Virus record (IMG/VR): IMGVR_UViG_3300028829_000356
Location: 1 to 37,748 of that record
Length of the DNA stretch: 37,748 nt
Origin: a virus
Direction: 5' to 3' (one strand)
How positions within the stretch are numbered: the stretch's first letter is position 1; each line of letters begins with the position of its first letter. Below are positions 7,570-26,489 of this stretch, piece by piece. A program made the position numbers and the translations under genes. The notes beneath the pieces are model-generated. The model was not told where the DNA came from, did not search any database, and saw only the letters and a program-made list of their open reading frames with translations.

Positions 7570-7577
7570 TATAAATA
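7570..7577 (+). promoter_or_regulatory. T4-type late promoter (TATAAATA)
   Basis: An exact TATAAATA lies just after the end of the replication block, in a 73-base gap, and precedes a long run of tightly packed genes of capsid-protein character (7640-15290). It matches the T4 gp55-dependent late consensus, so it probably marks the switch from early to late transcription. Confidence 0.7.
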
Positions 7578-7639: not shown

Positions 7640-8857
7640 ATGTTTAGTTTTAAAGGATTTACAACACAAGATAGAAATACACATTTAGAACACCTAGAAG
7701 ACGATATAATAAATCGTGGAACAAAGGGTGGAGAAAATGCGTTAAACTTTTTAAGATCGGTGAGAGATATGCTCGCTGGTTCTTCAAATAAAAAAGTTAA
7801 TATGACAGTTAAATGGGATGGCGCTCCAGCTATCATCTGTGGTATTAATCCAGAAAATGGCAAATTCTTTGTCGGCACAAAATCAGTATTCAATAAAAAT
7901 CCTAAAGTAAATTACACTAACGCAGATATAAGTAAAAATCACTCTGGCGAATTAGCGTCTAAATTATCAATCGCATTAAAAGAATTAAAACGTCTAGGTA
8001 TTAAAGGTGTATTACAAGGTGACTTTCTATTCGCACAATCAGATTTAAAAAAGATTAGTTTAGATGGAGAAGATATGATTTCATTTACACCTAATACAAT
8101 TACATATGCTGTTCAATCTTCATCTGCTGTAGGCAGACAGATTAGTAGAGCAAGAATGGGAATTGTTTTTCACACAAAATATTCAGGTAAGACTTTAGAT
8201 AGTATGACTGCTGGATTTGGTACAGTTAGAGGTAGAGCAACTAATGTATTTCTAGCGAGTGCTGGTTACAAAGATGTATCTGGTTCTGCGAAACTTACAA
8301 GAAACGAACTAGCACAATTCAACGCAAAATTAAGAATGGCAGAAGGTTCATTATCAAAGGCAGCACCTTTGTTAGATGAAATGAGTAAGTCTTCTGCTGA
8401 TGGTTTAGGTGTAGGGTTTAGATTAAAAACTTTCTTCAATCATCACATAAGAGGATCGCAAGGTCATATGGCTAAAGTTAGAACTCTAGTAGATATGTTT
8501 AGAGATTACTATATCAATATTGTTCAAGCAGAGATTGATAGTAAGAAGACAGATAAAGGAAAACAAAAGTATAAAGATATACTAGCAACAAATTTAAAAT
8601 TTATAGATAGAAATAAGAATGCTTTAGTAATGGCTGTTGCATCTCACGTTACTTTACAAAATGCGAAAGACTTTTTGATTAAGAAGATGAGTGAGATACA
8701 AAGCATAGGACATTTTTTAAAAACTTCTACAGGTTATAAAGTTACAAGTCCAGAAGGATATGTAGCCGTAGATAAAGTAGCAGGAGCAATCAAGTTAGTT
8801 GATAGAATGGAATTCAGTAGAGCTAACTTTACAATGCCAAAAGGATGGAGTAATTAA
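7640..8857 (+). CDS. KxDG-motif protein, possible ligase-like covalent nucleotidyltransferase
   Basis: A 405-residue conserved phage protein of a family I know only as uncharacterised in marine T4-like phages. What catches the eye is VKWDGAPAI with Lys58-Trp-Asp-Gly61, matching motif I (KxDG) of the DNA/RNA ligase and capping-enzyme superfamily. After it come GKFFVGTKS, then VLQGDFLF (about 124-131), resembling motif III, and GIVFHTKYSG (about 174-183), which could be motif IV. That order and spacing are plausible for a ligase core, but motifs V and VI are not obvious. The N-terminus (MFSFKGF) resembles capsid-targeting peptides of the neighbouring genes. It follows the late promoter at 7570 and a GAGAGA ribosome-binding site, and abuts the next gene at TAATG. 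Confidence 0.8.
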   Translation: MFSFKGFTTQDRNTHLEHLEDDIINRGTKGGENALNFLRSVRDMLAGSSNKKVNMTVKWDGAPAIICGINPENGKFFVGTKSVFNKNPKVNYTNADISKNHSGELASKLSIALKELKRLGIKGVLQGDFLFAQSDLKKISLDGEDMISFTPNTITYAVQSSSAVGRQISRARMGIVFHTKYSGKTLDSMTAGFGTVRGRATNVFLASAGYKDVSGSAKLTRNELAQFNAKLRMAEGSLSKAAPLLDEMSKSSADGLGVGFRLKTFFNHHIRGSQGHMAKVRTLVDMFRDYYINIVQAEIDSKKTDKGKQKYKDILATNLKFIDRNKNALVMAVASHVTLQNAKDFLIKKMSEIQSIGHFLKTSTGYKVTSPEGYVAVDKVAGAIKLVDRMEFSRANFTMPKGWSN

Positions 8858-9204
8858 TGACAAAGACATTTAAACAATTTGAAGATTATGATATACAGTG
8901 TGAAGAAGTAATATTCGAACACGAAAGTGAGCCTTTACAAGAGGCAGAGTATCAAGGTAAGACAGTAAAATTAAACGACCCAGTTAGAGGTGGTTCTAAA
9001 AAGTTTTATGTGTATGTAAAAGATGGCGACAAGGTTAAGAAAGTATCATTTGGTGATACAACTGGTCTATCTATTAAGAGAGATAACCCAGCGAGAAGAA
9101 AGTCATTTAGAGCAAGACACAATTGCGCTGATCCAGGACCAAAAACTATGGCGAGATATTGGTCGTGTTATCAATGGAGAGCTGGAGCGAAAGTAAACGA
9201 TTAA
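8857..9204 (+). CDS. Small Cys/Arg-rich protein with capsid-targeting-like N-terminus
   Basis: Unknown function, 115 residues, two parts. The N-terminus MTKTFKQFEDYD resembles the T4 head-targeting peptide, and an LQE-A site (EPLQEAEYQG, about residues 27-36) fits the known gp21 protease consensus (L/I)xE|A/G. The C-terminal domain (about 33-115) has GGSKKFYVYVKDGDKVKKVS, RDNPARRKSFRARHNC and ARYWSCYQWR, with two cysteines that could bind metal or pair. I recall this C-terminal domain from other phage proteins but cannot name its function. Start overlaps the preceding stop and end overlaps the next start (both TAATG). Confidence 0.8.
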   Translation: MTKTFKQFEDYDIQCEEVIFEHESEPLQEAEYQGKTVKLNDPVRGGSKKFYVYVKDGDKVKKVSFGDTTGLSIKRDNPARRKSFRARHNCADPGPKTMARYWSCYQWRAGAKVND

Positions 9205-9887
9205 TGAAAAAACTAAATCAAATATTGCGAGAGGGTGTTTACGACCCAGGTATATTTAAAGCTTTCTTTTTAGCTGGTGGGCCTGGAAGTGGTAAGTCAT
9301 TTGTAACGGCTGGGGCCTTTGGTGGCACTGGTTTAAAACTTGTGAACTCTGACGCTTCATTTGAAAGAGGTTTAAGAAAAGGTAATCTATCATTAAAGAT
9401 GCCTGACGAAGAAGAATATTTTAGAAACATTGTAAGAGCTAAAGCAAAGATGACTACTGCTACTCAATTAGATACTTACATACAAGGTAGATTAGGTTTA
9501 GTCATAGACGCAACTGGTAGAGATAAAAGTGTTATTAATAATCAAAAGAAACAATTAGACCTTATAGGTTATGATAGTTATATGATTTTTGTTAATACAA
9601 GTTTAGAAGTAGCGTTAGAAAGAAATAAGAATAGACCTAGAACTGTACCAGATTATGTCGTACAGAATAGTTGGAATCAGGTACAATCTAACATTGGTCA
9701 GTTTCAAAGAATTTTTAGTCCTGGTAGAATGTTAATTGTAGATAACAATAGAAGTGAAAAAGAATTAGTAACACTAACACTTAACACAGCTGCGAGATAT
9801 ATACGAAGTCAATTAAGAGCTAGTCCTCAAAATCTAACAGCGAAACAGTGGATAGCAAACGAATTAAAAGCTAAAAAAAGAATATGA
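9204..9887 (+). CDS. P-loop kinase (zeta-toxin / polynucleotide-kinase-like)
   Basis: A 227-residue P-loop phosphotransferase. Walker A is GGPGSGKS (residues 25-32), followed by LVNSDASFERGLRK, a helical linker, Walker B-like GLVIDATGRD, and a lid region VALERNKNRPRTVPDYVV. This layout matches the zeta toxin and polynucleotide/AAA-kinase group; the substrate could be a nucleic-acid 5' end, a sugar nucleotide or another small molecule. The ATG at 9204 is preferred to one 45 bases upstream because it overlaps the previous stop (TAATG) and gives an N-terminus MKKLNQILREG like the capsid-targeting peptides next door (LRE-G fits a gp21 cleavage site). It overlaps the 908-residue gene by 4 bases. 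Confidence 0.85.
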   Translation: MKKLNQILREGVYDPGIFKAFFLAGGPGSGKSFVTAGAFGGTGLKLVNSDASFERGLRKGNLSLKMPDEEEYFRNIVRAKAKMTTATQLDTYIQGRLGLVIDATGRDKSVINNQKKQLDLIGYDSYMIFVNTSLEVALERNKNRPRTVPDYVVQNSWNQVQSNIGQFQRIFSPGRMLIVDNNRSEKELVTLTLNTAARYIRSQLRASPQNLTAKQWIANELKAKKRI

Positions 9888-12610
9888 GATTTAAAGATTT
9901 TATAAAGGAAAGTATCATAGATATACCTAGACAAAGATATGCGCCAGGTGTATTTGATGACGCTGATACTAATAATCCAAAATTAAAACCTGTTGTTGTT
10001 AAACTTATCAAAGATCAAATTAAAGAATTTGAGAAGTATCACCCAGTAAAAAAATATTCATTGATTGGTTCTATACTTACAAAAAAATATAGAGACGATG
10101 CTGATTTAGATATGAACATCTTATTTGATGTTCCAGAAAAAGATAGAGAAGAAGTTAGAATAGCATTAGCTAAAAATTTAAGAAATATAAACGGTAAACT
10201 TGTTCCAGGAACTAAACACCCAATTAACTATTATGTAATCACAGACCCAGAGTTAAAGAAAAAGAATGACGCTATGGCTGATGGTGTATTTGATATTGAT
10301 GAGAATGAGTTTGTAAGAAGACCTACCGAAGATACTTTCGACTCTGAAAAATATGAAGCAGACTTCCAAGCAAAAGTAAAAGAAATAGATGTAGTCAAAG
10401 GCGAACTTGCTAGAGATATAATTGATTACGAAGAACTAAAAGGTTTGACAGCAGATGATGTATTGAACTTACAAGCGAGAGTTAATAGTAAACTAGACGA
10501 GATAGAAGACAGTATAGAGGTATTAGTTGATATAGGTGATGATGTAGTCAAACAAAGACAAAGTGCTTTCAATGACGATATGACACCAGAAGAAATTAGA
10601 CAGTTTGGTAAGAAACATAAACTACCTAAAAATATTATTTACAAGTACCTAGAAAAATATCACTACTTAAAATTTTATAAGAAGTGTAAAGATATTTTAG
10701 AAGATGGTAAAGTTACAGATAAAGAAATTGATAGTTTAAAAACTGAAGCAAATAATGGTCCACCAAGGGTTATGGCATTTACATTTGGTAGATTTAATCC
10801 ACCAACAATAGGTCATCAAAAGTTGATGGACAAAGTTAAAACACAAGCTAGAGATTACAAAATTTATTTAAGTAGAAGTGAAGACCCTAAAAAGAATCCA
10901 CTAGACGTTAGATATAAAGAAAGATTAATGAAACAAATGTTTCGTTCTCATAGTAGAAACATAGAGATCAATCCATCAAACAATGTATTAGATATTTTAG
11001 TAAAACTATATGATGATTACAATAGAGTTGTTATGGTTGTTGGTAGTGATAGAGTTAGAGAGTTTGATACTTTACTAAAGAGATATAACAATGTAAAATC
11101 CAGACACGGATACTATTACTTTGAAGATATAAAAGTTGTATCTGCTGGAGCTCGTGATCCTGATGCCGAAGGCGCAGAAGGTATGAGTGCTAGTAAGATG
11201 AGAGCCGCGGCTGCTAAAGGTGACCTAGAAGCATTTAAAAAAGGATTACCTGGAAGTAGTAGAGGCACTAATGATGCTGAAACAATTATGAAAAATGTTA
11301 GAGTAGGTATGAAACTTCCCTCTAGTTATAAAATGGAAAATTACAAACCAATACCAACAGTTAAAGGGTTTGAACAAGAACAAGTAAGAGATTTATATGT
11401 TAGAGATATGATTTTTAACATTAACGATAAAGTAGATTATATAAAAGAAGATGTACAAGGTATAGTAAAAAGACGAGGTACTAACTATATCGTAATAGAA
11501 GATAATAATAACAATTTACACAAAGCATGGATATGGGATTGTCTTCCTGTAGCCGCAGATAGAGAAATAGAAGTAAGAGAATATGATACAAATATAGACT
11601 ATGGCTTTGAAGCAGTATCAGAAATGAAAGAAAATAAGATATCACAATCTGAAATAAATAATTTAGAAAGATTTGCTGATAGAATACTTAATAAGTATGG
11701 TGTTGATGTAGAATTTACAAGACACTTTGTTGATAGATTGAATGACACTAGAAACAATCCATCAATCAAAGTTGCTGAATTACAAAAGTTTTTTAAGAAA
11801 ATACAAAGAAATAAAGCACGTAATATTGTAAAACAGAATGATCAAACGGATGCTGTATTAAAAGATATGGAAACAAATCTAAACTTACCTGTAAAGATTA
11901 TTAAAAAAGGTAACGAATTCGAGGTAATCAATAAAACAATTATGAGAAAAAAAAATTTCCACGTAGGTTCTAGTAAAACCATTAGATACGAAGATAAAAC
12001 ACAACAGGATAAAGATGTCGAAAAGAAAGACGGAACACAACCTAAAAAATACTACTCTGGATTATCAAAAGATGTCAAAGATAAAAGAGCAGATTACTTC
12101 AAAAAGAACGATAGTAATAAACCAGCGCCAGGTGACGCAGATGCTAAAACGGAACCGTCTAAGCATACTAAAAAGTTTAGACAAATGTATGGTGAAACAA
12201 AGAAAGATTTACAAGACGCTTGTTGGGTAGGTTACAAACAAGTGGGTATGAAGAAGAAGGGTAATAAACAAGTACCTAACTGTGTACCAGAGAGTATGAG
12301 TTTAGAAGACGCACAACAAGTTGAGGGTTATGTATCAGAATCTTATGAGATAGGCGCTGATTATGCTAATCACACTAAAGAAATGACACCAGGACAAACA
12401 CCAAACGCCCCAGCAGTTGACGCTAAACAAAGAGGACCACAAGAATATAGTAAATTTAAACTAGATATTGAGACAAATGAAGTAAAAGAAAAAGATGTAA
12501 AAGAATGGGCAATGTCGGATTCTGTTTTAGATAAATATAAGGAAAGATACAAAGAATTATGGCGAGAAAAACTAGACGAAGTGGTGAAACGAATGATGGA
12601 CAAGATTTAG
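9884..12610 (+). CDS. Multidomain protein: Pol-beta-type nucleotidyltransferase + NMN adenylyltransferase-like
   Basis: A 908-residue chimaera. The N-terminus MRFKDFIKES is capsid-targeting-like. Next is a Pol-beta-superfamily nucleotidyltransferase: IGS (61-63) then DDADLD with Asp74 and Asp76. After an acidic helical linker comes a nucleotidylyltransferase of the NMNAT/cytidylyltransferase fold: AFTFGRFNPPTIGH with T308-x-G-H311, VVMVVGSDRVREF, and the SASKMR signature at 435-440. A small SH3-like beta domain follows (about 525-560), then an alpha/beta segment HFVDRLNDTRNNPSIKV (about 610-695), a lysine-rich linker, and a motif ACWVGYKQVGMKKKGNKQV with a second Cys, which I know from many T4-like cyanophage proteins. 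Both catalytic domains keep key residues. It could act in NAD or cofactor metabolism or RNA end processing. It may also be a polyprotein cut by the prohead protease. Confidence 0.85.
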   Translation: MRFKDFIKESIIDIPRQRYAPGVFDDADTNNPKLKPVVVKLIKDQIKEFEKYHPVKKYSLIGSILTKKYRDDADLDMNILFDVPEKDREEVRIALAKNLRNINGKLVPGTKHPINYYVITDPELKKKNDAMADGVFDIDENEFVRRPTEDTFDSEKYEADFQAKVKEIDVVKGELARDIIDYEELKGLTADDVLNLQARVNSKLDEIEDSIEVLVDIGDDVVKQRQSAFNDDMTPEEIRQFGKKHKLPKNIIYKYLEKYHYLKFYKKCKDILEDGKVTDKEIDSLKTEANNGPPRVMAFTFGRFNPPTIGHQKLMDKVKTQARDYKIYLSRSEDPKKNPLDVRYKERLMKQMFRSHSRNIEINPSNNVLDILVKLYDDYNRVVMVVGSDRVREFDTLLKRYNNVKSRHGYYYFEDIKVVSAGARDPDAEGAEGMSASKMRAAAAKGDLEAFKKGLPGSSRGTNDAETIMKNVRVGMKLPSSYKMENYKPIPTVKGFEQEQVRDLYVRDMIFNINDKVDYIKEDVQGIVKRRGTNYIVIEDNNNNLHKAWIWDCLPVAADREIEVREYDTNIDYGFEAVSEMKENKISQSEINNLERFADRILNKYGVDVEFTRHFVDRLNDTRNNPSIKVAELQKFFKKIQRNKARNIVKQNDQTDAVLKDMETNLNLPVKIIKKGNEFEVINKTIMRKKNFHVGSSKTIRYEDKTQQDKDVEKKDGTQPKKYYSGLSKDVKDKRADYFKKNDSNKPAPGDADAKTEPSKHTKKFRQMYGETKKDLQDACWVGYKQVGMKKKGNKQVPNCVPESMSLEDAQQVEGYVSESYEIGADYANHTKEMTPGQTPNAPAVDAKQRGPQEYSKFKLDIETNEVKEKDVKEWAMSDSVLDKYKERYKELWREKLDEVVKRMMDKI

Positions 12611-12612
12611 AG

Positions 12613-12687
12613 ATGGAAAAGTTTATCAAAGATTTGTCAGAAAATACACCAAACGAAGAACAATTTAGGGAGAAAGAAGATGAGTAA
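12613..12687 (+). CDS. Possible 24-residue peptide
   Basis: A short frame MEKFIKDLSENTPNEEQF followed by an acidic end, bridging the 69-base gap between the 908-residue gene and the next one; its stop overlaps the ATG at 12680. Its start echoes the FKxF-x-E N-termini of neighbouring genes (MEKFIKDLSE). It could be a real minigene or only a spacer that keeps ribosomes coupled. Confidence 0.35.
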   Translation: MEKFIKDLSENTPNEEQFREKEDE

Positions 12688-12997
12688 ATCATTTAGACAA
12701 TTTAAAAAAGGCGACTATGGATTATTAGAAGCCAAAGCGAGTGAGACTCATCTGCAGTATCTACGAGCTAAAACAGCGAGAAACGATCACTTTGAAACAA
12801 GAAGATATATCGCTGACAAGATATTAAACGACAAGAAACTAGCAGACGCCTATTCATCACTAGAGAAGATACACAATGACTTTGGTAAATTGATAGGGAA
12901 TGACGCAATAACAATTAGACAAAGATTGGAAACAACTTTGAAAGCTCAATTAAAGAAGAAAGTAATTAATTGGGACAACGTATGGAGCTCACTATAA
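12680..12997 (+). CDS. Small helical protein with capsid-targeting-like N-terminus
   Basis: Unknown function, 105 residues. It begins MSKSFRQFKKGDYGLLEAKA: the FRQF start and the LLE-A site at residues 15-18 match a T4 capsid-targeting peptide followed by a gp21 protease site. The rest is highly charged and helical (AKTARNDHFETRRYIADKIL; SLEKIHNDFGKLIG). A GGGAGAAAGAAG ribosome-binding region precedes the ATG. Its stop overlaps the next start (TAATG). It may be an internal head or prohead-core component, by inference. Confidence 0.75.
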   Translation: MSKSFRQFKKGDYGLLEAKASETHLQYLRAKTARNDHFETRRYIADKILNDKKLADAYSSLEKIHNDFGKLIGNDAITIRQRLETTLKAQLKKKVINWDNVWSSL

Positions 12998-14883
12998 TGA
13001 CATACAGAAAATCAATGTCTGAGGCAATCAGAGAAGTACAAGAATCAACTATCAAACCATATGTCTCAATGTCAATGGGTGGTCAATACAATGTATTAGA
13101 TAAAGATAGTAAAGTGGTTTATTCAACAAGAGATAAAACACTAGCATACGATAAGTTAAAAGAAGAACTACAAGAAACTCCTCAAGGTTTTGCCTTAGTT
13201 TCAAAAGCAAAAGAAATTGCTAAAAAGTTTGCCAACAATATGTCTAAGGCTGTGGCAGAAATAGAAAAATTAGAAAAAGGTTTATCAAATAATTCTTCAG
13301 TAAAAGACGCTTTACAAAAAGCAAATGAAAGTTTAGAAATAGACGAAGAAGTATCTTTACAAGAAGTATCAGATAAACTTAAACTAGCTGTACTAAAGAA
13401 AAAAATTAAACAATACAAAGACAAAGTATTTAAGAAAACTATGTCAACTGTCAAGTCACCATTGTTCGCAGGTTACGAAGAAATGGAAGAGGGTAGAATG
13501 AAAGACATATTTACAGCGGACCAAGAAGGTAAGAGTGCTGAAGAAATAGCTAAACTTATGAAGTTACCTTTGAAGACTGTAAAAAATATTCTAGGTGAAG
13601 AAGTATTTGAAGAACAAATTTTAGAATTTACTTCTGATATGATTAAGAGATTACAAAAATCATATTCTACAATGCCTAAGAAAATTTCACCAGAACAAGC
13701 GACAGCTCTTTCAAAACATTTAGATAGACTTGACTTGGCTTCATTAAAACAATTAACTAAAGCAAAAATACCATTTGTTACTACACTTGCTAGAAACAAA
13801 GTTTATAAGAAGACAGGTAAGTTTGAAGCAGTTGAAGAGCCTAAAAAAGATGTATCAAAAGAAACAGATACAGATAAGATTAAACTTGCTAAAGAAAAAG
13901 ATACAGACGCATTAGAGAAACAACTAATCGCTGCTCAAGGTCAAATCAATATTCTAAAAACAAAATTAGAAAACGAAAAGAATAAAGTTGTTAAACCTGA
14001 GCCAAATCCAAAGACTGGCGAAGTACCATTAACAGTTGGTGTTGCTTACAAACACTTCAAAGATGATGAAGATAAAGAAAAAAAAGAAGTTAAAAAAGAA
14101 GAAACAATTAATGAGTTTAAAAAGATGACTGTTACTTTTAAAAATATGAATGATATGTCAAAGGCTTCAACTGATTTAGCAAAACAAGGTTTCACTATTA
14201 ATGCTAAAGGTACTGTTATGAAAGTTGATGGTAAAGGTGATGACCTTAATAAGTACGCTACAGACCTTAAAAACTTTTATGGTGCAAAAATTGTAGCAGA
14301 GGAAAATTTAAAAGAGTTATCAAAGGCAGAAAGAGATAAAAGAATACAAAGAGCAAAAGATATGATTAAGTATTATGACGCTCAAAAGAAAGCTGCTCTT
14401 AAAGGTCCTAATAAAGCTTTAGCAAAGAAGATGTTAAAGAATGATAGTGAAGATGAACCAAGAGAAAAGAAGAAAGAAACTCCACCTTTGGATACAACGG
14501 GTGTAGTTGAGATGGCTAAAGATTCATCTGCTCACGCTATTGGTATGTCTCAAGCGATGAAGTCAACAGGTGACAAACCACCTTTAGATAAATCGACTAT
14601 AAAAAAAGGACATAAGATTGCTAAAGCAATTTTAAACACAGAAGAAAAAAGAGTATATGTTGAGTCAATGGCAGGATTAAGAAAAAAGGCTGACAAGTCT
14701 GGTATGTCATATTCAATATTAAAAAAAGTTTTCGATAGAGGTATGGCTGCTTGGAAAAGTGGACATAGACCTGGCGCAAGTCAACAACAGTGGGCTTACG
14801 CTAGAGTAAACTCTTTCATAACAAAATCCTCAGGTACCTGGGGTGGCGCTGACAAAGATTTAGCGAAACAAGTAAAAGGATAA
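12997..14883 (+). CDS. Large lysine-rich protein with DUF5824-like C-terminus
   Basis: A 628-residue, very lysine/glutamate-rich protein with long predicted helices and coiled coils, as in scaffold or internal head proteins. The ATG at 12997 (TAATG with the previous gene) gives MTYRKSMSEAIREVQES, again like a capsid-targeting peptide; a start 27 bases upstream is possible but loses this. An RLQKSYSTMPKKISPEQATALSK segment lies near residue 210. The C-terminal domain (about 555-628) contains GMSYSILKKVFDRGMAAW and HRPGASQQQWAYARV, the signature of a phage domain I recall as DUF5824; function unknown. LxE sites such as SLQE and ILEF are scattered through it, so proteolytic maturation is possible. 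Confidence 0.82.
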   Translation: MTYRKSMSEAIREVQESTIKPYVSMSMGGQYNVLDKDSKVVYSTRDKTLAYDKLKEELQETPQGFALVSKAKEIAKKFANNMSKAVAEIEKLEKGLSNNSSVKDALQKANESLEIDEEVSLQEVSDKLKLAVLKKKIKQYKDKVFKKTMSTVKSPLFAGYEEMEEGRMKDIFTADQEGKSAEEIAKLMKLPLKTVKNILGEEVFEEQILEFTSDMIKRLQKSYSTMPKKISPEQATALSKHLDRLDLASLKQLTKAKIPFVTTLARNKVYKKTGKFEAVEEPKKDVSKETDTDKIKLAKEKDTDALEKQLIAAQGQINILKTKLENEKNKVVKPEPNPKTGEVPLTVGVAYKHFKDDEDKEKKEVKKEETINEFKKMTVTFKNMNDMSKASTDLAKQGFTINAKGTVMKVDGKGDDLNKYATDLKNFYGAKIVAEENLKELSKAERDKRIQRAKDMIKYYDAQKKAALKGPNKALAKKMLKNDSEDEPREKKKETPPLDTTGVVEMAKDSSAHAIGMSQAMKSTGDKPPLDKSTIKKGHKIAKAILNTEEKRVYVESMAGLRKKADKSGMSYSILKKVFDRGMAAWKSGHRPGASQQQWAYARVNSFITKSSGTWGGADKDLAKQVKG

Positions 14884-14888
14884 AAACA

Positions 14889-15290
14889 ATGAGTTATTTA
14901 AAACACAAACCAGGTAGCATAGAAGAATTAATGGCGAATGAAGCATCAAAATTAAACGATAATGCTTACCAAGATATGTTCAAAAAAGAACTAGACAAAG
15001 CTGGTAAAGGTATCGGCGGTATGTCACCAAAAGAAAAAAAAGATTTCTTTAATAAAATTGACGACAAGTATAAAGCAAAGACTGAAGAATTATCAGCAGG
15101 TCAAAAGAAATTACCAGACGCTTTGAAAAAAGTAATAATGAAAAAGATGAGTGGTAAAGACGAAGCGAATGACGTTGATAATGGTGATGAAAAACACCCT
15201 ACATCTGCGAAACAAGTTAAGAGAGTTGCTGATTCAGGATCAAAATTGACAAAAGTTGAAACTGAACCTAAAGCGGATTTCAAAAACTAG
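14889..15290 (+). CDS. Charged hypothetical protein, possible prohead component
   Basis: Unknown function, 133 residues, rich in Lys, Asp and Glu. It starts MSYLKHKPGSIEELMANEASK, an opening I associate with hypothetical proteins of marine T4-like phages, then helical KKEKKDFFNKIDDKYKAKTEE-type sequence and a disordered C-terminus. It has no signal peptide or membrane segment. It lies 5 bases after the preceding gene and closes the capsid-type cassette; the following gene has its own promoter. Confidence 0.75.
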   Translation: MSYLKHKPGSIEELMANEASKLNDNAYQDMFKKELDKAGKGIGGMSPKEKKDFFNKIDDKYKAKTEELSAGQKKLPDALKKVIMKKMSGKDEANDVDNGDEKHPTSAKQVKRVADSGSKLTKVETEPKADFKN

Positions 15291-15320
15291 AACAAACCAA
15301 GAACATAGACCATTTTTTAG

Positions 15321-15349
15321 TTGACAAAAGACTAAAAGTATGGTATATT
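15321..15349 (+). promoter_or_regulatory. Sigma70-type promoter giving a near-leaderless mRNA
   Basis: TTGACA (15321-15326), 17-base spacer, TATATT (15344-15349). The expected transcription start (about 15356) falls only a few bases before the ATG at 15359, so there is no room for a ribosome-binding site. Confidence 0.8.
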
Positions 15350-15358
15350 AATGTATAT

Positions 15359-15856
15359 ATGAAAAAAGAATTACCAAGAATATACCTAGACATGGACGGC
15401 GTTCTATGTGATTTCGGAAAACAAATTGAAAAGGCGACAGGTAAGTCTAAGGCCGAATGGTTGAAGATACCTAGTAGTAGAAAATGGGATACTGTATTAG
15501 ACTATCCTAATTTCTGGGCTAACATGCCTTGGCTAGGTCAAGGTAAAGTCATGTATAACTTTGTTAAGAAATACAATCCTCATATTCTATCAGCGTATAT
15601 GGAAAAGACCCATGACCCAAATTGTATCCCTGGTAAATCAGCGTGGGTTAGAAAGAACTTGGGTATGTCAGGTGGTAGAGTTAATCTAGTAAGAAGACGA
15701 GAGAAACAAAACTTTGCTACAAATCAAGGACAACCTTGTATTCTTATAGATGATTACGACAAAAACACGTCACAATTCACGGCTAGAGGTGGTATAGGTA
15801 TCACTTTCAGATCAGCCTCTCAAACAATATCTCAGCTTAAAAAACTAGGCTTCTAA
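15359..15856 (+). CDS. HAD-family 5'-nucleotidase-like hydrolase
   Basis: A 165-residue haloacid-dehalogenase-fold phosphatase, most like 5'(3')-deoxyribonucleotidases. Motif I is YLDMDGVLCDF with nucleophile Asp11 and acid/base Asp13; the C-terminal part has PCILIDDYDKNTSQF, the motif IV acidic pair, preceded by a VNLVRRREKQNFA segment likely to carry the motif III lysine. A nucleotide-pool role alongside NrdA/NrdB is likely. It has its own consensus promoter, with the start codon almost at the transcription start, so the message appears leaderless. This makes it an early-type gene placed between late cassettes. Confidence 0.88.
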   Translation: MKKELPRIYLDMDGVLCDFGKQIEKATGKSKAEWLKIPSSRKWDTVLDYPNFWANMPWLGQGKVMYNFVKKYNPHILSAYMEKTHDPNCIPGKSAWVRKNLGMSGGRVNLVRRREKQNFATNQGQPCILIDDYDKNTSQFTARGGIGITFRSASQTISQLKKLGF

Positions 15857-15859
15857 TCT

Positions 15860-15867
15860 TATAAATA
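15860..15867 (+). promoter_or_regulatory. T4-type late promoter (TATAAATA)
   Basis: Exact TATAAATA just after the HAD gene, followed by a 65-base leader containing an AGTCG/CGACT inverted repeat and an AAAGGAGAGA ribosome-binding site before the virion-type gene at 15932. Confidence 0.75.
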
Positions 15868-15931
15868 TATACGTTAATTAACAATCAAACAGTCGTAGAT
15901 TTAAAGCGACTAGATTTTAAAGGAGAGACAT

Positions 15932-16504
15932 ATGTCACTATGGGGATTAGATATTGCACCCAAAAACTTGACTGACGCAGAGAAAAAAGAAGTATTTGTG
16001 AACGAAAAAGGTTGGGTAAGAAAAGCGGGTTCAATATTATCAGGAAACGGAAATGCGAATGCAGATCCAGAAGTATTAGTAGCAGTTGGTGGATTACCAA
16101 CAGCAATGGGTACAGCAAATATTACATCATTTAGTTTTGTAAACGAAACTTATGACGTATCTGCTGGATACGTAATGTCTGTAACAGCAAACTTCAACGA
16201 AGCAGTTGACGTTACAGGAACACCACAACTTTCACTTACAAATGGTAACCAAGGTTCAGGTTCAGGAAGAGGACCACACGTACTATCTTATGCAAGTGGA
16301 ACAGGAAGTAACGAATTATTATTTACATTAACAATAGCGGCGGCTAACGCAGCTACAGCTGCTGATGATGTAATAACAATCGGCGCAAACGCAGTGTCAC
16401 TAAACGGTGGAACAATTAAAGATGCAGGTACATCAGTTGTATCTACTATCACTACCGCTGCATCTGTTGGTACTGGAGCTGGTTCAGTTACAGTAGTAGC
16501 GTAA
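15932..16504 (+). CDS. Virion-type protein with Ig-like (SwmB-like) beta domain
   Basis: A 190-residue probable structural protein. The N-terminus MSLWGLDIAPKNLTDAEKKE resembles small virion proteins of marine T4-like phages. From about residue 60 to the end it is an Ala/Gly/Thr/Val-rich beta-sandwich with FNEAVDVTGTPQLSL, LLFTLTIAAAN and VSLNGGTIKDAG, the pattern of repeats in large bacterial surface proteins such as SwmB. Codon use is unusually GC-richer than its neighbours because of the alanine/glycine content. It has a late promoter and a strong ribosome-binding site upstream and an intrinsic terminator downstream, so it is an isolated, probably highly expressed transcription unit. A decoration or tail-surface role is inferred. 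Confidence 0.82.
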   Translation: MSLWGLDIAPKNLTDAEKKEVFVNEKGWVRKAGSILSGNGNANADPEVLVAVGGLPTAMGTANITSFSFVNETYDVSAGYVMSVTANFNEAVDVTGTPQLSLTNGNQGSGSGRGPHVLSYASGTGSNELLFTLTIAAANAATAADDVITIGANAVSLNGGTIKDAGTSVVSTITTAASVGTGAGSVTVVA

Positions 16505-16520
16505 TAATTAAATATTTTAT

Positions 16521-16542
16521 AGGGGCGCTCTGGCGCCCTTAT
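16521..16542 (+). terminator. Rho-independent terminator
   Basis: GGGCGC (16523-16528), loop TCTG, GCGCCC (16533-16538), followed by TTATATATA. This is a conspicuous GC-rich stem in AT-rich DNA directly after the virion-protein gene. The 3' tract is not pure T but is suitable for intrinsic termination. Confidence 0.8.
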
Positions 16543-16564
16543 ATATACTATATGAACAAATTGA

Positions 16565-16600
16565 TCTAGGTGTATGCCTAGAGTAACATTCCCGAAAGGG
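16565..16600 (+). promoter_or_regulatory. Leader hairpins upstream of the gene at 16618
   Basis: TCTAGG/CCTAGA form a 6-bp stem with a TGTATG loop (16565-16582), followed by CCC-GAAA-GGG (16591-16600), a small stem with a GNRA-type loop, just before the CAGGAG ribosome-binding site. They may stabilise the message or affect translation. The second stem is only three pairs. Confidence 0.4.
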
Positions 16601-16617
16601 TTAACAGGAGAAAACAA

Positions 16618-17079
16618 ATGGCAGACAAGAAAATAACAGCGCTATCTGATCTAGGTAACGCAATCGCAAGTGACGATTTATTTCATGTGGTTGATGATCC
16701 AAGTGGAACACCAATCAACAAAAAGATTTCATCACAAAATGTATTCAATAACATTCCAACTTACTTAGGTTTAAAACAAACTTCTCAAGTTATTGTAGCT
16801 GATGGTTCAGCAACAACCCAAGTAGATGTAATTTCTGCAGTGACAGAAATAAATGCTTCGGCAGGAACTCACTCATGTATAATTGCTGACGGAACTGAAG
16901 GTCAAGTTAAAATAATCATTAACACATCTACATCAGGAACAAACGCTGTAACAATTACACCTACAAACTTTAGAGGATATAGTACAATAGTATTAAATGC
17001 TCAAGGTGAAACAGCAACATTGATGTTTAAAAACTCAAATTGGAATGTAATTTCACACCATGGAGCTACAATATCATAA
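16618..17079 (+). CDS. Virion / tail-associated protein
   Basis: A 153-residue protein of a type I recognise from marine T4-like phages by its opening [20 protein letters not shown] and [18 protein letters not shown]. The N-terminal half is a short conserved module often found at the start of phage fibre proteins, where it probably docks onto the virion. The C-terminal half (about 60-153) is Thr/Ala/Ile-rich with beta-strand character. It has a CAGGAG ribosome-binding site after a structured leader. Its stop overlaps the next ATG. The exact position in the virion is unknown. Confidence 0.8.
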
Positions 17080-17288
17080 TGACTATTGACAAAACTATAT
17101 TAGAAGCTGAAAGAGAAAAGCTTAAAACTGATTTTGATAATGTAACAACATCAATAAATTCACTTGAAAAGAATTTAATAACTATGAGAGGTAACTTAAA
17201 TGCTTTAAACGGAGCAATCCAACAAGTAGATAAGTTATTGTTAATGGTAGAAACAAAAACAGAAACAAATAAAGATGAAAACATTTAA
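17079..17288 (+). CDS. Small coiled-coil protein
   Basis: Unknown function, 69 residues. The ATG at 17079 overlaps the preceding stop (TAATG) and begins [20 protein letters not shown]; a longer frame starting at 17040 inside the upstream gene is less likely. Nearly the whole protein is a predicted coiled coil with regular leucines and an acidic tail. It could be a bundling or assembly factor for the upstream virion protein, by position only. Confidence 0.7.
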   Translation: MTIDKTILEAEREKLKTDFDNVTTSINSLEKNLITMRGNLNALNGAIQQVDKLLLMVETKTETNKDENI

Positions 17289-17409
17289 AACTTTTAATAA
17301 AGAAAAAGATTTAGAGGATTTTGAAGAAGATATAGCAGCAACACCTGAAAAGGAAACTGATAAGTCTTCAGAAAAAGAAACACAAGAGGAAAAAAATGAA
17401 AACGTTTAA
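17275..17409 (+). CDS. 44-residue acidic peptide with FKTF start
   Basis: A short frame overlapping both neighbours by 14 bases: MKTFKTFNKEKDLEDFEEDI, then a Glu/Lys/Thr-rich disordered tail. It fills the gap between 17288 and 17396 exactly, and the MKTFKTF start copies that of the next gene (MKTFKTH), as well as T4-type capsid-targeting peptides. Coding status is likely but not certain. Confidence 0.6.
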   Translation: MKTFKTFNKEKDLEDFEEDIAATPEKETDKSSEKETQEEKNENV

Positions 17410-17830
17410 GACACACTTAAAAGAACAAAGTTATGATGGTGGCCAAATGGGCAGTCAAACAGCTGATGGTGTAGAAGATGGTAACATTGGAGCACATAAT
17501 ATCCACGATGCTGACGTACTAAAAAGAGTTAATGCTTTTGTTGGTTCAGTAGCAGATTGTGAATATTTAAAACCTCAATTCGCAGTTGACAAGTTAAAAG
17601 AAAAACTTGAAAGAATAGGTTTAACAGTTGCTGATGTAAAATTAGAAGGCGACAACGGTAAAGTAAATGCTGAAGTGAAACAGTTTGGTGGAAGATTTGG
17701 TAAAGACACAGACGGTTCTGATATAAATGATGACGGTATATCTCATAAAAAAGAGGGCGGATTAAAGTTAGAAATATCTTATGAAACTCTTAAAAACGGA
17801 ACTTCAAAGGTCTACGCTAAATTAGTGTAG
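17396..17830 (+). CDS. Hypothetical protein with capsid-targeting-like N-terminus
   Basis: Unknown function, 144 residues. It begins MKTFKTHLKEQSYDGG, matching the MKTYQEF-type head-targeting peptides of T4 in shape, and continues with a helical segment DADVLKRVNAFVGSVADCEY and an alpha/beta domain VDKLKEKLERIGLTVADVK. A GAGGAAAAAA ribosome-binding region precedes the start. The acidic DTDGSDINDDG loop could bind a metal. It may be an internal head protein, by inference. Confidence 0.78.
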   Translation: MKTFKTHLKEQSYDGGQMGSQTADGVEDGNIGAHNIHDADVLKRVNAFVGSVADCEYLKPQFAVDKLKEKLERIGLTVADVKLEGDNGKVNAEVKQFGGRFGKDTDGSDINDDGISHKKEGGLKLEISYETLKNGTSKVYAKLV

Positions 17831-21888: not shown

Positions 21889-21896
21889 TATAAATA
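21889..21896 (+). promoter_or_regulatory. T4-type late promoter directly upstream of csgF
   Basis: Exact TATAAATA ending 5 bases before the ATG at 21902. T4 late transcription starts about 6 bases after this box, so the csgF mRNA would begin at or next to its start codon. This places the curli-type genes under late control. Confidence 0.72.
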
Positions 21897-21901
21897 GTAG
21901 T

Positions 21902-22390
21902 ATGAAAACATCATTTAGAACAATGGTGTTGGTACTGACTACACTTATACTCACACTTGACTACAACTTACTAGCATCTGAATTGACACAAGAGTTCAAA
22001 AACCCTGCCTTTAGTGGTAACGGTTACTCGTCTCATGTGCTATCTATTAATCAATTAGAAGTACAAAGAGAACAAAAAGTATTTGATGACCTTAAATCAG
22101 CAAAGGCAGCTGCCGAAAGAGCAGAAAAAAATAAGACGGTAAATAAATTTATAGCCAATGTTGAGAGTAGAATATATGCTAACCTTTCTAAACAACTGGT
22201 TGATAATATGTTCGGTACAAGTTGCGATAGTAGTACAACTACTTGTCCTACATCTGGTACTTCAACGATTGAAGGTGCTCAAATAGCGTGGGTCAAAGAT
22301 AATACTACTGAAATAATTACATTAACAATAACAGCTGATGATGGAACAGTTACGACAATGGCAGTTCCAATTGGTGACTTTAAATTTTAA
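21902..22390 (+). CDS. csgF: CsgF-like curli assembly factor
   Basis: A 162-residue exported protein homologous to CsgF, which caps the CsgG channel on the outside and couples curlin secretion to surface assembly. After a signal peptide ending near NLLAS it begins ELTQEFKNPAFSGNGYS, matching the CsgF N-terminus that inserts into the CsgG pore (E. coli FQFRNPNFGGNP). A helix follows (FIANVESRIYANLSKQLVDN), then a beta-rich end finishing GDFKF, like CsgF's DF end. It carries a Cys108-x6-Cys115 pair absent from my recollection of E. coli CsgF. The ATG at 21902 is chosen over an upstream TTG at 21884 because the late promoter lies between them. Confidence 0.88.
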   Translation: MKTSFRTMVLVLTTLILTLDYNLLASELTQEFKNPAFSGNGYSSHVLSINQLEVQREQKVFDDLKSAKAAAERAEKNKTVNKFIANVESRIYANLSKQLVDNMFGTSCDSSTTTCPTSGTSTIEGAQIAWVKDNTTEIITLTITADDGTVTTMAVPIGDFKF

Positions 22391-22396
22391 AAGAAA

Positions 22397-23221
22397 ATGA
22401 AAACATTATTGATTTTACTACTAGGAATAATACTGACTGGTTGTAACGCAGGTAAAGACGTTGAAATATACAAAGGTAAAGGTCCTTTTATTGAAGGATC
22501 TACTACCAAACAAAGATTAAACTCTATACCAAAGTTAGACGGACAACCTAAAATTACAATTGCGGTTTATAGATTTGTTGATAAGACAGGTCAAAGAAAA
22601 CCAAGTACAAAGTTTTCTCAATTGTCAACTGCTGTAACACAAGGTGGTAGTTCGTTTGTCATAGATGCTCTAAAAGAAGTATCAAATGGAGATTGGTTTC
22701 AAGTTTTAGAACGAGAAGGTTTAGATAATCTAATTAAAGAAAGACAATTAATTAGAAGTACAAGAACTGAATATGATGGTGAAGCAAATGTAGGTAACAT
22801 TTTAAAACCATTAACATTTGCTGGTCTTATCATAGAGGGTAGTATCGTAGGTTATGATAGTAATATACAGACAGGTGGTAACGGTGCTAGATATTTAGGT
22901 ATTGGAATTAGTGAGCAATATAGAGTAGATCAAGTTACTGTATCAATGAGAATTGTAGCAGTACAAACGGGAGAAATTTTATTAACTACCAATGTGACTA
23001 AAACAATTGCTAGTCATAGTAAAGGTGGTGATGTATTCACTTTTTTAGATATGAATACAAAGGCTTTAGAATTAGAAACAGGAGTGGCTGTAAATGAACC
23101 AGTAACTTACGCCATAAGAACTGCTATTGAATTTGCTATATTAGATTTAATATATTGTGGAGAACAAGATGGTTACTGGAAATTTAAACAAGAAAAAGAA
23201 GAAAGATTTAACAGAAAATGA
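22397..23221 (+). CDS. csgG: CsgG-like curli secretion channel lipoprotein
   Basis: A 274-residue homologue of CsgG, the nonameric outer-membrane lipoprotein channel that exports curlin subunits. The lipobox is LTGC with lipidated Cys16. CsgG blocks follow: ITIAVYRFVDKTGQRKPS, LEREGLDNLIKERQLIRS, AGLIIEGSIVGYDSNIQTGG, ARYLGIGISEQYRVDQV, TGEILLTTNVTKTI, and NEPVTYAIRTAIEFAILDL. Length equals the family norm. The eyelet loop that narrows the E. coli pore (Tyr51, Asn55, Phe56) is changed: here PSTKFSQLSTAV (from Pro69), one residue longer. CsgE, CsgB-type nucleator and CsgD are not in the window. It sits between csgF and a curlin-repeat gene, with which it overlaps (ATGA). Confidence 0.95.
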   Translation: MKTLLILLLGIILTGCNAGKDVEIYKGKGPFIEGSTTKQRLNSIPKLDGQPKITIAVYRFVDKTGQRKPSTKFSQLSTAVTQGGSSFVIDALKEVSNGDWFQVLEREGLDNLIKERQLIRSTRTEYDGEANVGNILKPLTFAGLIIEGSIVGYDSNIQTGGNGARYLGIGISEQYRVDQVTVSMRIVAVQTGEILLTTNVTKTIASHSKGGDVFTFLDMNTKALELETGVAVNEPVTYAIRTAIEFAILDLIYCGEQDGYWKFKQEKEERFNRK

Positions 23222-23901
23222 AAACAATAATTAGTGTTATTATGTTCTTAATGATGACAGTTTTGTCATACTCTAACGACATATATGTTACTCAATCAGG
23301 TGCTTCACTTGATTTAGATATAACACAAGACGGAGAAAACAACACAGTTGGTAATAGTACAACAGCTTCAGCTTCTGCTGGTGCTACAACAATATTAAAC
23401 ATAGATCAGGTTGGTGATTCAAACGTAATCACATATCAGATCGCTGGTGCTACATACACTGGTGTTATTAACCTAGTTGGTAACTCAAACAATGTTGACT
23501 TAAATTGTGATAGTGGTGGAAGTAATTCATCATGTGGATCAGCAAATGCTGTAATTAACTTTACAGGTTCATCAAATGATATTGATTTAGATATAGGTCA
23601 AACTTCATCAGCTACTTCAGCAGATGTAGATTTAGTTGGTCAATCAGGATCAGACAGTAACGTAATTGCTGCTACAGTTGATGGTAACAGTGCGATCTTA
23701 ACAATCACAGTAAATGGCGACACAAACAATTACTTAATTGACATAGATGGTAATGGTGACGCTAACGGTCACACTCTAATACACTCACACACAGGTGGTA
23801 TTGCTGATGTTGATATTACACAATCAGGTGTTAATGACAATATGATTACTTTAACAACAAGTGGAGATAATGCTGATATTGATATAAGCCAAACAGACTA
23901 A
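23218..23901 (+). CDS. Curlin-repeat (CsgA/CsgB-like) secreted protein
   Basis: A 227-residue protein with a signal peptide (MKTIISVIMFLMMTVLSYS) and a body of imperfect curlin-type repeats: IYVTQSG, LDITQDGENNTVGNS, LNIDQVGDSNVIT, INLVGNSNNVDL, VDITQSGVNDNMITL and the final ADIDISQT. The alternating hydrophobic/Ser-Asn-Gln pattern (I/V-x-I/V-x-Q-x-G-x-x-N) is that of amyloid-forming CsgA and CsgB, with Asp much more frequent. A Cys97-x8-Cys106 pair sits mid-sequence. It is the likely cargo of the adjacent CsgG/CsgF channel. Translation is coupled to csgG by an ATGA overlap. Whether it nucleates, polymerises or decorates the virion is not readable. Confidence 0.87.
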   Translation: MKTIISVIMFLMMTVLSYSNDIYVTQSGASLDLDITQDGENNTVGNSTTASASAGATTILNIDQVGDSNVITYQIAGATYTGVINLVGNSNNVDLNCDSGGSNSSCGSANAVINFTGSSNDIDLDIGQTSSATSADVDLVGQSGSDSNVIAATVDGNSAILTITVNGDTNNYLIDIDGNGDANGHTLIHSHTGGIADVDITQSGVNDNMITLTTSGDNADIDISQTD

Positions 23902-23930
23902 TAAAAACACTACACTCACAAGGACACACT

Positions 23931-24032
23931 ATGACTACACTACTATTATTCACAGGATTAATAATATATGCGTGCTATAAATTTTACAATTGGGTTCATA
24001 CTTTTAACCCTTACGACTTTAGTAACAAATAG
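23931..24032 (+). CDS. Possible 33-residue membrane peptide
   Basis: A short frame MTTLLLFTGLIIYACYKFYN ending FNPYDFSNK, with AAGGA 7 bases before the ATG and one membrane segment. It overlaps the FecR gene's signal peptide in another frame by 65 bases, so it might serve as a translational lead-in for that gene. A long overlap lowers confidence. Confidence 0.5.
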   Translation: MTTLLLFTGLIIYACYKFYNWVHTFNPYDFSNK

Positions 24033-25077
24033 TTTTGCTACTATTGGTGAAGTATCTATCATATCTGGTAGTGCTGTCATTGATAGACAAGACGGAGATA
24101 AAGGTATAACAGTAAAGAAAGAGTTAGATGTTCTTTCTTACGATACTGTTAAGACCGGCAATGGTAAAGTTGGTATAGAGTTTATAGATGATACCAGAGT
24201 TGATGTAACTGAACATAGTAAGTTAGTCATTGACGAATTTGTTTATGACCCTAATACAAAGACAGGTTCATTATCACTAAAGGCTTCATTAGGAACAGTT
24301 CGATATGCTTCAGGTCAGATCGCTAAAAATTCAAAACAAAATGTAAAGATTAGTACACCCACAGCTACAATTGCTGTTAGAGGAACTGACTTTGCTATGA
24401 CTGTAAATGAAATAGGTGGATCAACAATTGTTTTATTACCTAGTTGCGATGGTAATGGTAATTGTTATGTAGGAGAAATCGAAGTACAAACAGACGCCGG
24501 TTTTGTTATAATGAACCAAGCCTTTCAAGCTACAATAGTTGATACAATGGAATCAAAACCTTTGAAACCTGTATTACTTGATTTAGATATAGATATGATT
24601 AACAACTTATTGATTGTATCTCAACCAAAAGAAATAGAAGCTGGTATAGAAGAAGAAAGAAAATTAAAAGCAGTTGCGAATGCTTTAGATATTGACTTTT
24701 TAAAATTTGATGATTTAGAAGTTGATCTATTAGAACCAGAAGATGAAGAATTTGCTGAATTAGATATAGACTTTTTAGATAACGATTTTCTTGTAGATAT
24801 TTTAGAACAATTAAATAAACAACTTGCTGTACAGATGCAAAGTGAGTTTGACAAAAAATCAAAAACTAAAACTGGTAAAGATGAATTTGGTGTAATACTA
24901 TTAGATGAAGACCCACAGTGGGTATGGAAAAGAACAGATGAGAGTAATAATAATATAGAGTTAAGATTAGACCAAGAGTATGGTTATAATATAAATGTAA
25001 CTCAAGGTGACATAGAAATTATAGATTATGAACTAGGTGATAGTCCAACAAATCAAATAACAATTAATCAACAGTAA
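23968..25077 (+). CDS. FecR-domain exported protein with curlin-like C-terminal tail
   Basis: A 369-residue exported protein. A signal peptide (ending near VTNSFA) precedes a FecR domain (about 30-165): VGIEFIDDTRVDVTEHSKLV, GTVRYASGQIAKNSKQNVK and the hallmark ISTPTATIAVRGTDF. FecR domains act in periplasmic signalling or surface anchoring. A Cys160-x5-Cys166 pair (PSCDGNGNCYV) follows. Next is a long acidic region with repeated DIDFL-like units (about 230-275). The last 30 residues look like curlin half-repeats (YNINVTQG and NQITINQQ), suggesting it could join the fibre. It is coupled by TAATG to the next gene. A sensor for export state or a fibre anchor are both possible. Confidence 0.85.
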   Translation: MRAINFTIGFILLTLTTLVTNSFATIGEVSIISGSAVIDRQDGDKGITVKKELDVLSYDTVKTGNGKVGIEFIDDTRVDVTEHSKLVIDEFVYDPNTKTGSLSLKASLGTVRYASGQIAKNSKQNVKISTPTATIAVRGTDFAMTVNEIGGSTIVLLPSCDGNGNCYVGEIEVQTDAGFVIMNQAFQATIVDTMESKPLKPVLLDLDIDMINNLLIVSQPKEIEAGIEEERKLKAVANALDIDFLKFDDLEVDLLEPEDEEFAELDIDFLDNDFLVDILEQLNKQLAVQMQSEFDKKSKTKTGKDEFGVILLDEDPQWVWKRTDESNNNIELRLDQEYGYNINVTQGDIEIIDYELGDSPTNQITINQQ

Positions 25078-26489
25078 TGTATAAATTTTTAAAAAGATTA
25101 ACAATTTTTATATTCATATGGATAGTGTTTTTTTCTATCGTAGATAAGTTAAAAGCTGATACTGCCTTTATATATTATAAAAATAGTGGTACTTATAATA
25201 CTAGCTCTCAATACACAAATCTTAAAAGTGAATTAGAAGATTTAGGTTATACTGTATCTAGTAGTACAAGTGGTACAATTAGCTCTAATGATATATCAGG
25301 TAAAGATTTTGTCATTGACATAACTGGTTCATCAAATTGTGGTAGTACCTGTAAATCAGTGTATGACAGTTACGTGAGTGGTGGTGGTAAATTACTTATA
25401 GCAGGTGCTAACGGAGCAACCAACAGAAATAGCAGTATAGAAGCACTGATCGAAAGCAAGATGAGTGTGGGAAGTTTCACTCAAGGTGGTAGTAGTAATG
25501 GTGGTTATCAAAATATAGCCAGAGGCGATTATGCCAGTAGCACATCAAGTGAAAATATTTTACCAGGCACAGACAAATTTATGTACAACGTATCTGGTGG
25601 TGAAATGGTTTCTGCTAATAGTACCACATCTACATATGAAATGATGCACAAATGGGATTATGGTTCAAATGGTGGTTCAGTTTATGTAACATTTGGTTAT
25701 AATCAGTTTCTTTCAACTCATCAATATGCGTCTAACATGAATGCCTTTTTAACTAGAATAATGATAGAAGAAGGATTATATTCAACAACAGTATTATCAA
25801 GTATAACTTCAAATCAAACAACAGAGTTTAACACATTTAGAAATAAATCTGTAAGTGGTAATCAAATTTATATTACACAGACTGGAGATAACAATACACT
25901 AAACATAGTACAAGACGGTGACGACAACTTAATTATTGGTACAGACTTAACATCATCTGGTGTAATAAACGGTGATAATAATAATGTAGATATAGACCAA
26001 TTAGGTAGTGATAATGTATTAGGTTTAGATATCGTTGGTTCTTCAAATGATGTAGATGTAATACAAAACCAAGACCAAAGGGCAAAGTTAAGTATTACAG
26101 GTAATTCAAATACGACAAACTTAAATCAGTCAGCAATCAGTAATGTTGGTGAGCATTATATGTCGGTCACAGTAGCAGGTAATAGTAACACACTTGATTT
26201 AGACCAGACTGAAACAGGTAATAAGAAATTGTTTTTAGATATAGATGGTTCAAATAATGTTACAGTAGACCAAAAAGGTACAGGTAATCACTATTCAGAA
26301 ATAACATTGACTGATAGTCATACTGTAGATGTAACACAAGACGGAAGTGGTGACCACAATGCCACAATTAATTTAAGTGGAAACAATACATCAATAACAT
26401 TAACGCAAGATAGTAGTACAAATCAAAACTATTATTTACAACAAAACTGTGCTTCTACTAGTTGTTCAGCTACAGTCACACAGAATTAA
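25077..26489 (+). CDS. Exported protein: Rossmann-like N-domain + curlin repeats
   Basis: A 470-residue protein with a signal peptide (to about LKA, residue 28). The N-terminal domain (about 29-255) has DTAFIYYKNSGTYN, DLGYTVSSS, KDFVIDITGSS and GGGKLLIAGANGATNRNSS, the pattern of a ThuA/class-I-amidotransferase-like alpha/beta fold; no catalytic Cys-His pair is evident. From about residue 265 to the end are curlin repeats such as IYITQTGDNNTLNIVQDGDD, VDIDQLGSDNVLG, LDLDQTETGNK and VDVTQDGSGDHN. Two short Cys pairs occur (Cys88-x3-Cys92 and Cys458-x4-Cys463). It is probably a large minor or modified curlin-type subunit exported through CsgG. A strong alternative is a surface adhesin with its own route. 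Confidence 0.82.
   Translation: MYKFLKRLTIFIFIWIVFFSIVDKLKADTAFIYYKNSGTYNTSSQYTNLKSELEDLGYTVSSSTSGTISSNDISGKDFVIDITGSSNCGSTCKSVYDSYVSGGGKLLIAGANGATNRNSSIEALIESKMSVGSFTQGGSSNGGYQNIARGDYASSTSSENILPGTDKFMYNVSGGEMVSANSTTSTYEMMHKWDYGSNGGSVYVTFGYNQFLSTHQYASNMNAFLTRIMIEEGLYSTTVLSSITSNQTTEFNTFRNKSVSGNQIYITQTGDNNTLNIVQDGDDNLIIGTDLTSSGVINGDNNNVDIDQLGSDNVLGLDIVGSSNDVDVIQNQDQRAKLSITGNSNTTNLNQSAISNVGEHYMSVTVAGNSNTLDLDQTETGNKKLFLDIDGSNNVTVDQKGTGNHYSEITLTDSHTVDVTQDGSGDHNATINLSGNNTSITLTQDSSTNQNYYLQQNCASTSCSATVTQN

Follow-up and report, generated by a model that had tools for sequence, protein, structure and literature searches.

The window analysed here is a 37,748-bp IMG/VR virus fragment of a T4-like phage, in which a block of genes starting at position 7640 encodes otherwise unrelated proteins whose N-termini resemble the capsid-targeting sequence (CTS) of the T4 internal head proteins (IPs). 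We consider it likely that this block is a late unit giving the phage head an enzyme cargo via a cleavable CTS, and that this cargo is delivered with the DNA. T4 already sorts proteins by a CTS; what we add is the same sorting applied to a conserved block of late enzyme genes in marine T4-like phages. The virus is a virus of marine bacteria, kin to Pelagibacter phage HTVC008M: the DUF6267 proteins of the two are 51% identical, the gene order of HTVC008M gp121–gp134 resembles that of the window (DNA polymerase, UvsX, gp41 and then the 7640 block), and a DNA search against named phages returned no near match to the window.

Because several unrelated enzymes appear to share a removable T4-type tag and relatives of one of them were found in purified virions, the virus probably injects enzymes with its DNA. 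For the window phage we infer that the proteins bind the core, are cleaved, lie within the head and are injected, as follows, genes being named by their start coordinates. The block from 7640 would be a late transcription unit supplying the cargo. In 9204, 9884 and 12680 at least, and probably in 8857, 12997 and 17396, the ~10 N-terminal residues would serve as a T4-type CTS, with hydrophobic or aromatic residues near positions 4 and 7 binding the prohead core. The prohead protease gp21 would cut after (L/I/M)xE, so that mature enzymes would remain in the head and enter the cell along with the DNA. Judged by their N-termini, the targeting reading is well supported for 9204, 9884 and 12680, while 8857, 12997 and 17396 are weaker candidates for bearing a CTS.

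Predicted capsid-targeting N-termini in the block

An earlier note on this DNA had listed nine N-termini from this region as alike; all nine are encoded, with the start of the MTYRKSMSEA gene corrected to 12997 and that of the MEKF open reading frame (ORF) to 12613. The three gp21-type sites quoted there, in 8857, 9204 and 12680, are also present (Table 1, arrows marking predicted cuts), and two more were found, IKE9↓S10 in 9884 and MSE9↓A10 in 12997. A contiguous form, as in T4 IPII and IPIII (MKTYQEFIAE↓A), is seen in 9204 (MKKLNQILRE↓G), 9884 (MRFKDFIKE↓S), 12997 (MTYRKSMSE↓A) and 17396 (MKTFKTHLKE↓Q), and a split form, as in T4 IPI, in 8857 (MTKTFKQF...LQE29↓A) and 12680 (MSKSFRQF...LLE17↓A); 7640 (MFSFKGF) and 17275 (MKTFKTF) have aromatics-only starts. 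Hydrophobic or aromatic residues fall near positions 4 and 7 in 9204 (L4 and I7), 9884 (F3 and F6, one residue shorter), 8857 and 12680 (F5 and F8) and 7640 (F4 and F7), and in part in 17396 (F4 and H7) and 12997 (Y3 and S6). The sequence (L/I)xE followed by A, G or S is present and conserved in 9204, 9884, 12680 and 8857; position −3 is M in the 12997 site and +1 is Q in 17396, and no conserved gp21-type site of this kind was found in 7640 or 12613.

The T4 counterparts share this design, with a CTS of ~10 N-terminal residues, aromatics at 4 and 7 and a cut after (L/I)xE; mutagenesis of IPIII assigned residues 4 and 7 mainly to targeting and 8 and 10 to processing (PMC9026906). The split form of T4 ipI, MKTFKEFTSTTTPVSTITE↓A (MKTFKEF...ITE19↓A), likewise has a distant site, as do 8857 and 12680, and a strict scan of 50 kb of T4 matched only two ORFs, ipII and ipIII. 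The T4 IPs are small basic proteins, whereas the candidate cargo of the window includes enzymes of 200–900 residues encoded in one late block beside gp41. A packaged enzyme is known from T4 too, in the injected, gp21-processed ADP-ribosyltransferase Alt (PMC9026906), which differs from the block enzymes in its propeptide, its enzyme class and its known target, host RNA polymerase.

With a position-specific scoring matrix (PSSM) trained on head-packaged proteins of other phages only (S-CREM2, S-SM1, S-SZBM1 and T4), the block genes scored above the remaining window genes (Mann-Whitney p = 0.0033), the top five of 48 genes all belonging to the block; shuffled block N-termini reached the observed score in 0 of 5000 trials. 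Conservation, the strongest test, was followed in 80 related IMG/VR loci with DUF6267, counting distinct N-termini and taking [LIVMF]xE[AGS] within residues 2–30 as the site. The site was present throughout the kinase (9204) family (100%, n = 39, all xE↓G), in 93% of the 12680 family (n = 15; the site is almost always xE↓A and the peptide before it varies), in 81% of the 9884 family (n = 31), in 76% of the 8857 family (n = 34) and in 45% of the 12997 family (n = 20). Shuffled N-termini carried it in 6–16%, and the control families uvsX, gp41, primase and most others in 0–17% (nrdA reached 25%, with only four sequences). The lead peptide before the kinase-family site differs in length and sequence among relatives, and in 25 aligned 9204 homologues E10 and G11 are invariant while the preceding peptide varies.

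In the DUF6267 (7640) family the site occurs in 2% of relatives. Given this contrast with the high conservation in some other families, the tagged set holds up, yet it is not as large as the earlier note supposed. Its proposal of a whole enzyme set with head-targeting starts stands in so far as T4-type CTSs with gp21-type sites are present and a 9884 homologue with such an N-terminus occurs in the published virion proteomes of relatives; it does not extend to all nine proteins, since DUF6267 has no site in this lineage, the 12613 match is not kept in relatives, and 17275 and 17396 lack a canonical +1 residue.

Several relatives follow DUF6267 with a gene for an adenylate kinase (PF00406, E 3e-45) that carries a leading peptide such as MKSFKNFITE↓A. 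NCBIfam adenylate-kinase models begin only at about residue 14–16 of the tagged protein, which makes the tag an extension of a complete enzyme. The tagged kinase lies directly 3' of DUF6267 at L039:1977-2549, with similar cases at loci L034, L060, L061, L068, L073, L085 and L087, and is absent from the window.

Expression of the block late in infection is suggested by a T4-type late promoter element at 7570 that separates it from the preceding replication genes. In 73 of 74 related loci the element NATAAATA is found no more than 150 bp ahead of the DUF6267 start, usually near −68, compared with 55 of 1480 random 150-bp windows (3.7%), and the same late element precedes many HTVC008M structural genes. 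Across the whole window TATAAATA is not over-represented (4 seen, 7.1 expected), and the late-promoter argument thus rests on position and conservation.

Homologous enzymes in cyanophage virions

Putative or annotated cytidylyltransferases with a catalytic domain homologous to that of 9884 have been reported in the virions of several cyanophages, purified on CsCl: T4-GC190 of S-SM1 (PMC3037559), 140 of S-SZBM1 (PMC9146016) and ORF154 of S-CREM2, the last together with a S-adenosylmethionine (SAM) hydrolase, an APH/ChoK-like kinase, Cas9 and several unknown proteins (PMC10665884). NMNAT-like proteins were reported for virions of S-SCSM1 (ORF91, also homologous in its catalytic domain) and, as cited there, of S-CBWM1. 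The three cyanophage cytidylyltransferases inspected start, like 9884, with a CTS-type peptide (S-SM1 T4-GC190, MKKFSAFLNE↓A; S-CREM2 ORF154, MKNFSSFLTE↓A; S-SZBM1_140, MRFRQFIIE↓A); unlike them, 9884 has a polbeta-type domain added in front and extra C-terminal modules. Among cyanophage homologues of the S-SM1 protein, F4, F7, L8, E10 and A11 are kept in 80 of 80, with residue 9 variable; positions 4, 7, 8 and 10 are those singled out by the IPIII mutagenesis. We take these virion reports as strong independent support for the targeting reading.

Similar starts are found on or beside other S-CREM2 virion proteins: the SAM hydrolase (MKDFDSFLEE), gp13 (MKDLHSFLTE↓Q) and the kinase gp14 (MKRFDAFLTE↓E), and in Cas9 a slightly internal motif, LRFASFMAE↓A, from residue 17 of the annotated protein; delivery of this Cas9 in the head is possible. 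A T4-derived motif was present in 5 of 52 detected S-CREM2 virion proteins and 2 of 167 undetected ones (p = 0.009), or in 5 of 28 when only non-structural virion proteins were set against the same 167 (p = 7e-4); both p-values are indicative, because the regular expression was written after some of the N-termini had been seen. At L091:7704-13331 (S-CREM2) Cas9, the APH-like kinase and two small proteins, all virion-reported and all with a CTS-like motif, are encoded side by side, with the SAM hydrolase gp6, which also has one, nearby.

The S-SZBM1 DUF6267 protein (141) has no targeting peptide and does not appear in the reported virion list. Two hypothetical S-SZBM1 proteins, 191 (MKSFKSFLSE↓S) and 192 (MKTFKQYITE↓A), encoded beside a virion structural gene (L098:10912-11726), are predicted cargo; neither is in that list.

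A review suggests that the CTS may let T4-like phages load varied proteins (PMC9026906). In the accessible text of the cyanophage virion papers we did not find the tag on the cytidylyltransferases pointed out, and in the literature searched, 'capsid targeting' and 'cyanophage' occurred together only in that review; prior mention is possible, for example in subscription papers.

Alternatives and reach of the tag

Several observations weigh against a packaged cargo. The window fragment has neither gp21 nor capsid genes, gp21 being annotated in relatives (HTVC008M gp088, S-CREM2 gp143, S-SZBM1_178). In HTVC008M the tags themselves are degenerate, and the first 90 residues of the major capsid protein contain no canonical site, from which it follows that the protease specificity of the lineage may differ. 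The PSSM test set the block apart in the window, but over the whole HTVC008M genome it gave a trend only (p = 0.065), and a strict motif scan there matched no gene start. The cytidylyltransferase of Caulobacter phage Cr30 has no CTS-type start. Folding might also explain why the E↓G and E↓S residues, which lie next to conserved domains, are retained. The authors of the virion proteomes themselves noted that virion enzymes could be co-purified contaminants.

The shared N-termini might instead dock the proteins onto a different late complex, such as a scaffold, tail assembly or a cell enzyme complex, with no cargo involved. In favour of this, the evidence for the window phage is motif and homology, and DUF6267 keeps F4 and F7 without a cut site. 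We nevertheless regard docking as unlikely, for the protease residues L8 and E10 are kept besides F4 and F7, and homologous enzymes were reported in the CsCl-purified virions of several cyanophages. That those reports reflect highly expressed contaminants, making the proteomic support spurious, we hold to be somewhat less probable again: the concern raised by the proteome authors is met by detection that recurs, as published, across several phages and studies, and the detected non-structural enzymes of S-CREM2 carry the head-targeting motif rather than being a random abundant set. The shared tag is itself an argument against contamination. Chance likeness, in which AT richness of the genome favours starts of the form MK(T/S)(F/L) and enzyme folding retains the E with its following G or S, is the least probable and already disfavoured: MK starts are common in related genomes, a uvs protein start is superficially similar and the HTVC008M enrichment is weak, but controls stay at shuffled levels against 76–100% in four block families, the PSSM tells block genes from the other window genes, the site persists behind lead peptides of differing length and sequence, and in adenylate kinase the tag is added to an already complete enzyme.

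A broader reading, to which we give slightly less than even weight, is that the CTS is a portable head-import tag widely used by marine T4-like phages, which would deliver a changing enzyme toolkit at the first moment of infection, against defences or for nucleic-acid repair. The toolkit might comprise kinases, cytidylyl- and nucleotidyltransferases, adenylate kinase, SAM lyase and even the S-CREM2 Cas9. The tag offers a sequence rule for predicting packaged and injected genes of abundant marine T4-like phages, and a physical reason why cyanophage virions repeatedly yield enzymes whose status as possible contaminants had been left open. Many unknown genes become testable, and existing mass-spectrometry data can be re-read for the predicted new N-termini.

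Individual genes and neighbouring features

The structure model of 9204 (mean predicted local distance difference test score, pLDDT, 87.5) has a separate helix over residues 2–10, ending at E10↓G11, with pLDDT ~65 against ~90 in the core, whose first strand begins at residue 19. The protein carries a Walker A P-loop, GGPGSGKS; its closest fold is the Clostridium thermocellum Pnkp (CthPnkp) kinase (Foldseek, 4mde, E 8e-7, TMt 0.73, 24% identity), and a zeta toxin matches it by hmmsearch (2e-5). By fold, 9204 is a predicted polynucleotide kinase/zeta P-loop kinase; unlike Pnkp, in which it resembles the kinase domain, it is a stand-alone kinase with a targeting peptide.

In 9884, Pfam and PHROG matches join a polbeta-type nucleotidyltransferase to an NMNAT/cytidylyltransferase-like domain; PADLOC matches the polbeta-type domain to a candidate defence family, weakly only. 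Our guess at enzyme roles in the cell is polynucleotide or nucleotide phosphorylation and nicotinamide mononucleotide or nucleotidyl transfer; that the block enzymes serve rapid nucleic-acid repair or replenishment of nicotinamide adenine dinucleotide at the start of infection is speculation. DUF5824 is seemingly split in window 9884–14883, with a weak match of its N-terminal half in the 9884 protein and its C-terminal half in the 12997 protein, and small cysteine modules in the proteins of this interval are common to other phage proteins.

In DUF6267 relatives F2 and F4 are invariant and F7 nearly so; with no gp21-type site in the lineage, 7640 is doubtful as head cargo. An invariant KWDGAPA had raised the idea that DUF6267 is a nucleic-acid ligase, which we rejected: hhalign against T4 RnlB gave a probability of 0.3, a PDB sequence search was unsupportive, and there was no significant fold match, the model being poor. 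Also dropped as cargo were the 12613 ORF, whose E10 is lost in relatives (MEKFMKDLLDN and others; D10 in the L012 relative), and the nucleotidase 15359, 14889, 15932 and 16618, for which the motif is absent in the family. The modules CWxGYKQVG, YARVNSF, FRARHNC and GYGRYAD, considered as a second packaging code, occur mostly in cytidylyltransferases and their neighbours and are too few to test.

Table 1 Features of the 7640 block and its late promoter in the window
Feature	Position	Strand	Remarks
T4-type late promoter element TATAAATA	7570..7577	+	head of block
DUF6267 protein, start MFSFKGF	7640..8857	+	Pfam DUF6267, E 9e-121
Small protein with FRARHNC module; putative split targeting peptide MTKTFKQF...LQE29↓A30	8857..9204	+	
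Polynucleotide-kinase/zeta-like P-loop kinase (predicted); site LRE10↓G11, peptide codons 9204-9233	9204..9887	+	AAA_33, E 4e-9
Nucleotidyltransferase + NMNAT/cytidylyltransferase-like; site IKE9↓S10, peptide codons 9884-9910	9884..12610	+	Pfam/PHROG
24-aa ORF MEKFIKDLSEN...	12613..12687	+	kept in close relatives; cargo role unsupported
Small protein MSKSFRQF...LLE17↓A18	12680..12997	+	site in 14/15 distinct relatives
DUF5824-containing protein, MTYRKSMSE9↓A10	12997..14883	+	relatives MSRYRKTFKE↓A, MTRYTKTMAE↓A
44-aa protein MKTFKTFNKEK, targeting-like, no canonical site	17275..17409	+	
144-aa protein MKTFKTHLKE10↓Q, targeting-like	17396..17830	+	relatives MKTFKQHIKE↓x, Melnitz MKNFKNHIAE↓E

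The HTVC008M 5'-nucleotidase gp134 (L004:13129-13719) bears an extension, MKYSAFKAE..., with the best CTS-profile score in that genome; its window homologue has no extension. Further along the window, curli-like genes (CsgF, CsgG and CsgB-like; 21899–26489) resemble HTVC008M gp14–gp18, the first of them preceded by TATAAATA at 21889, and positions 29887–31800 encode a protein resembling adenylate/guanylate cyclases, like the one annotated as HTVC008M gp019.

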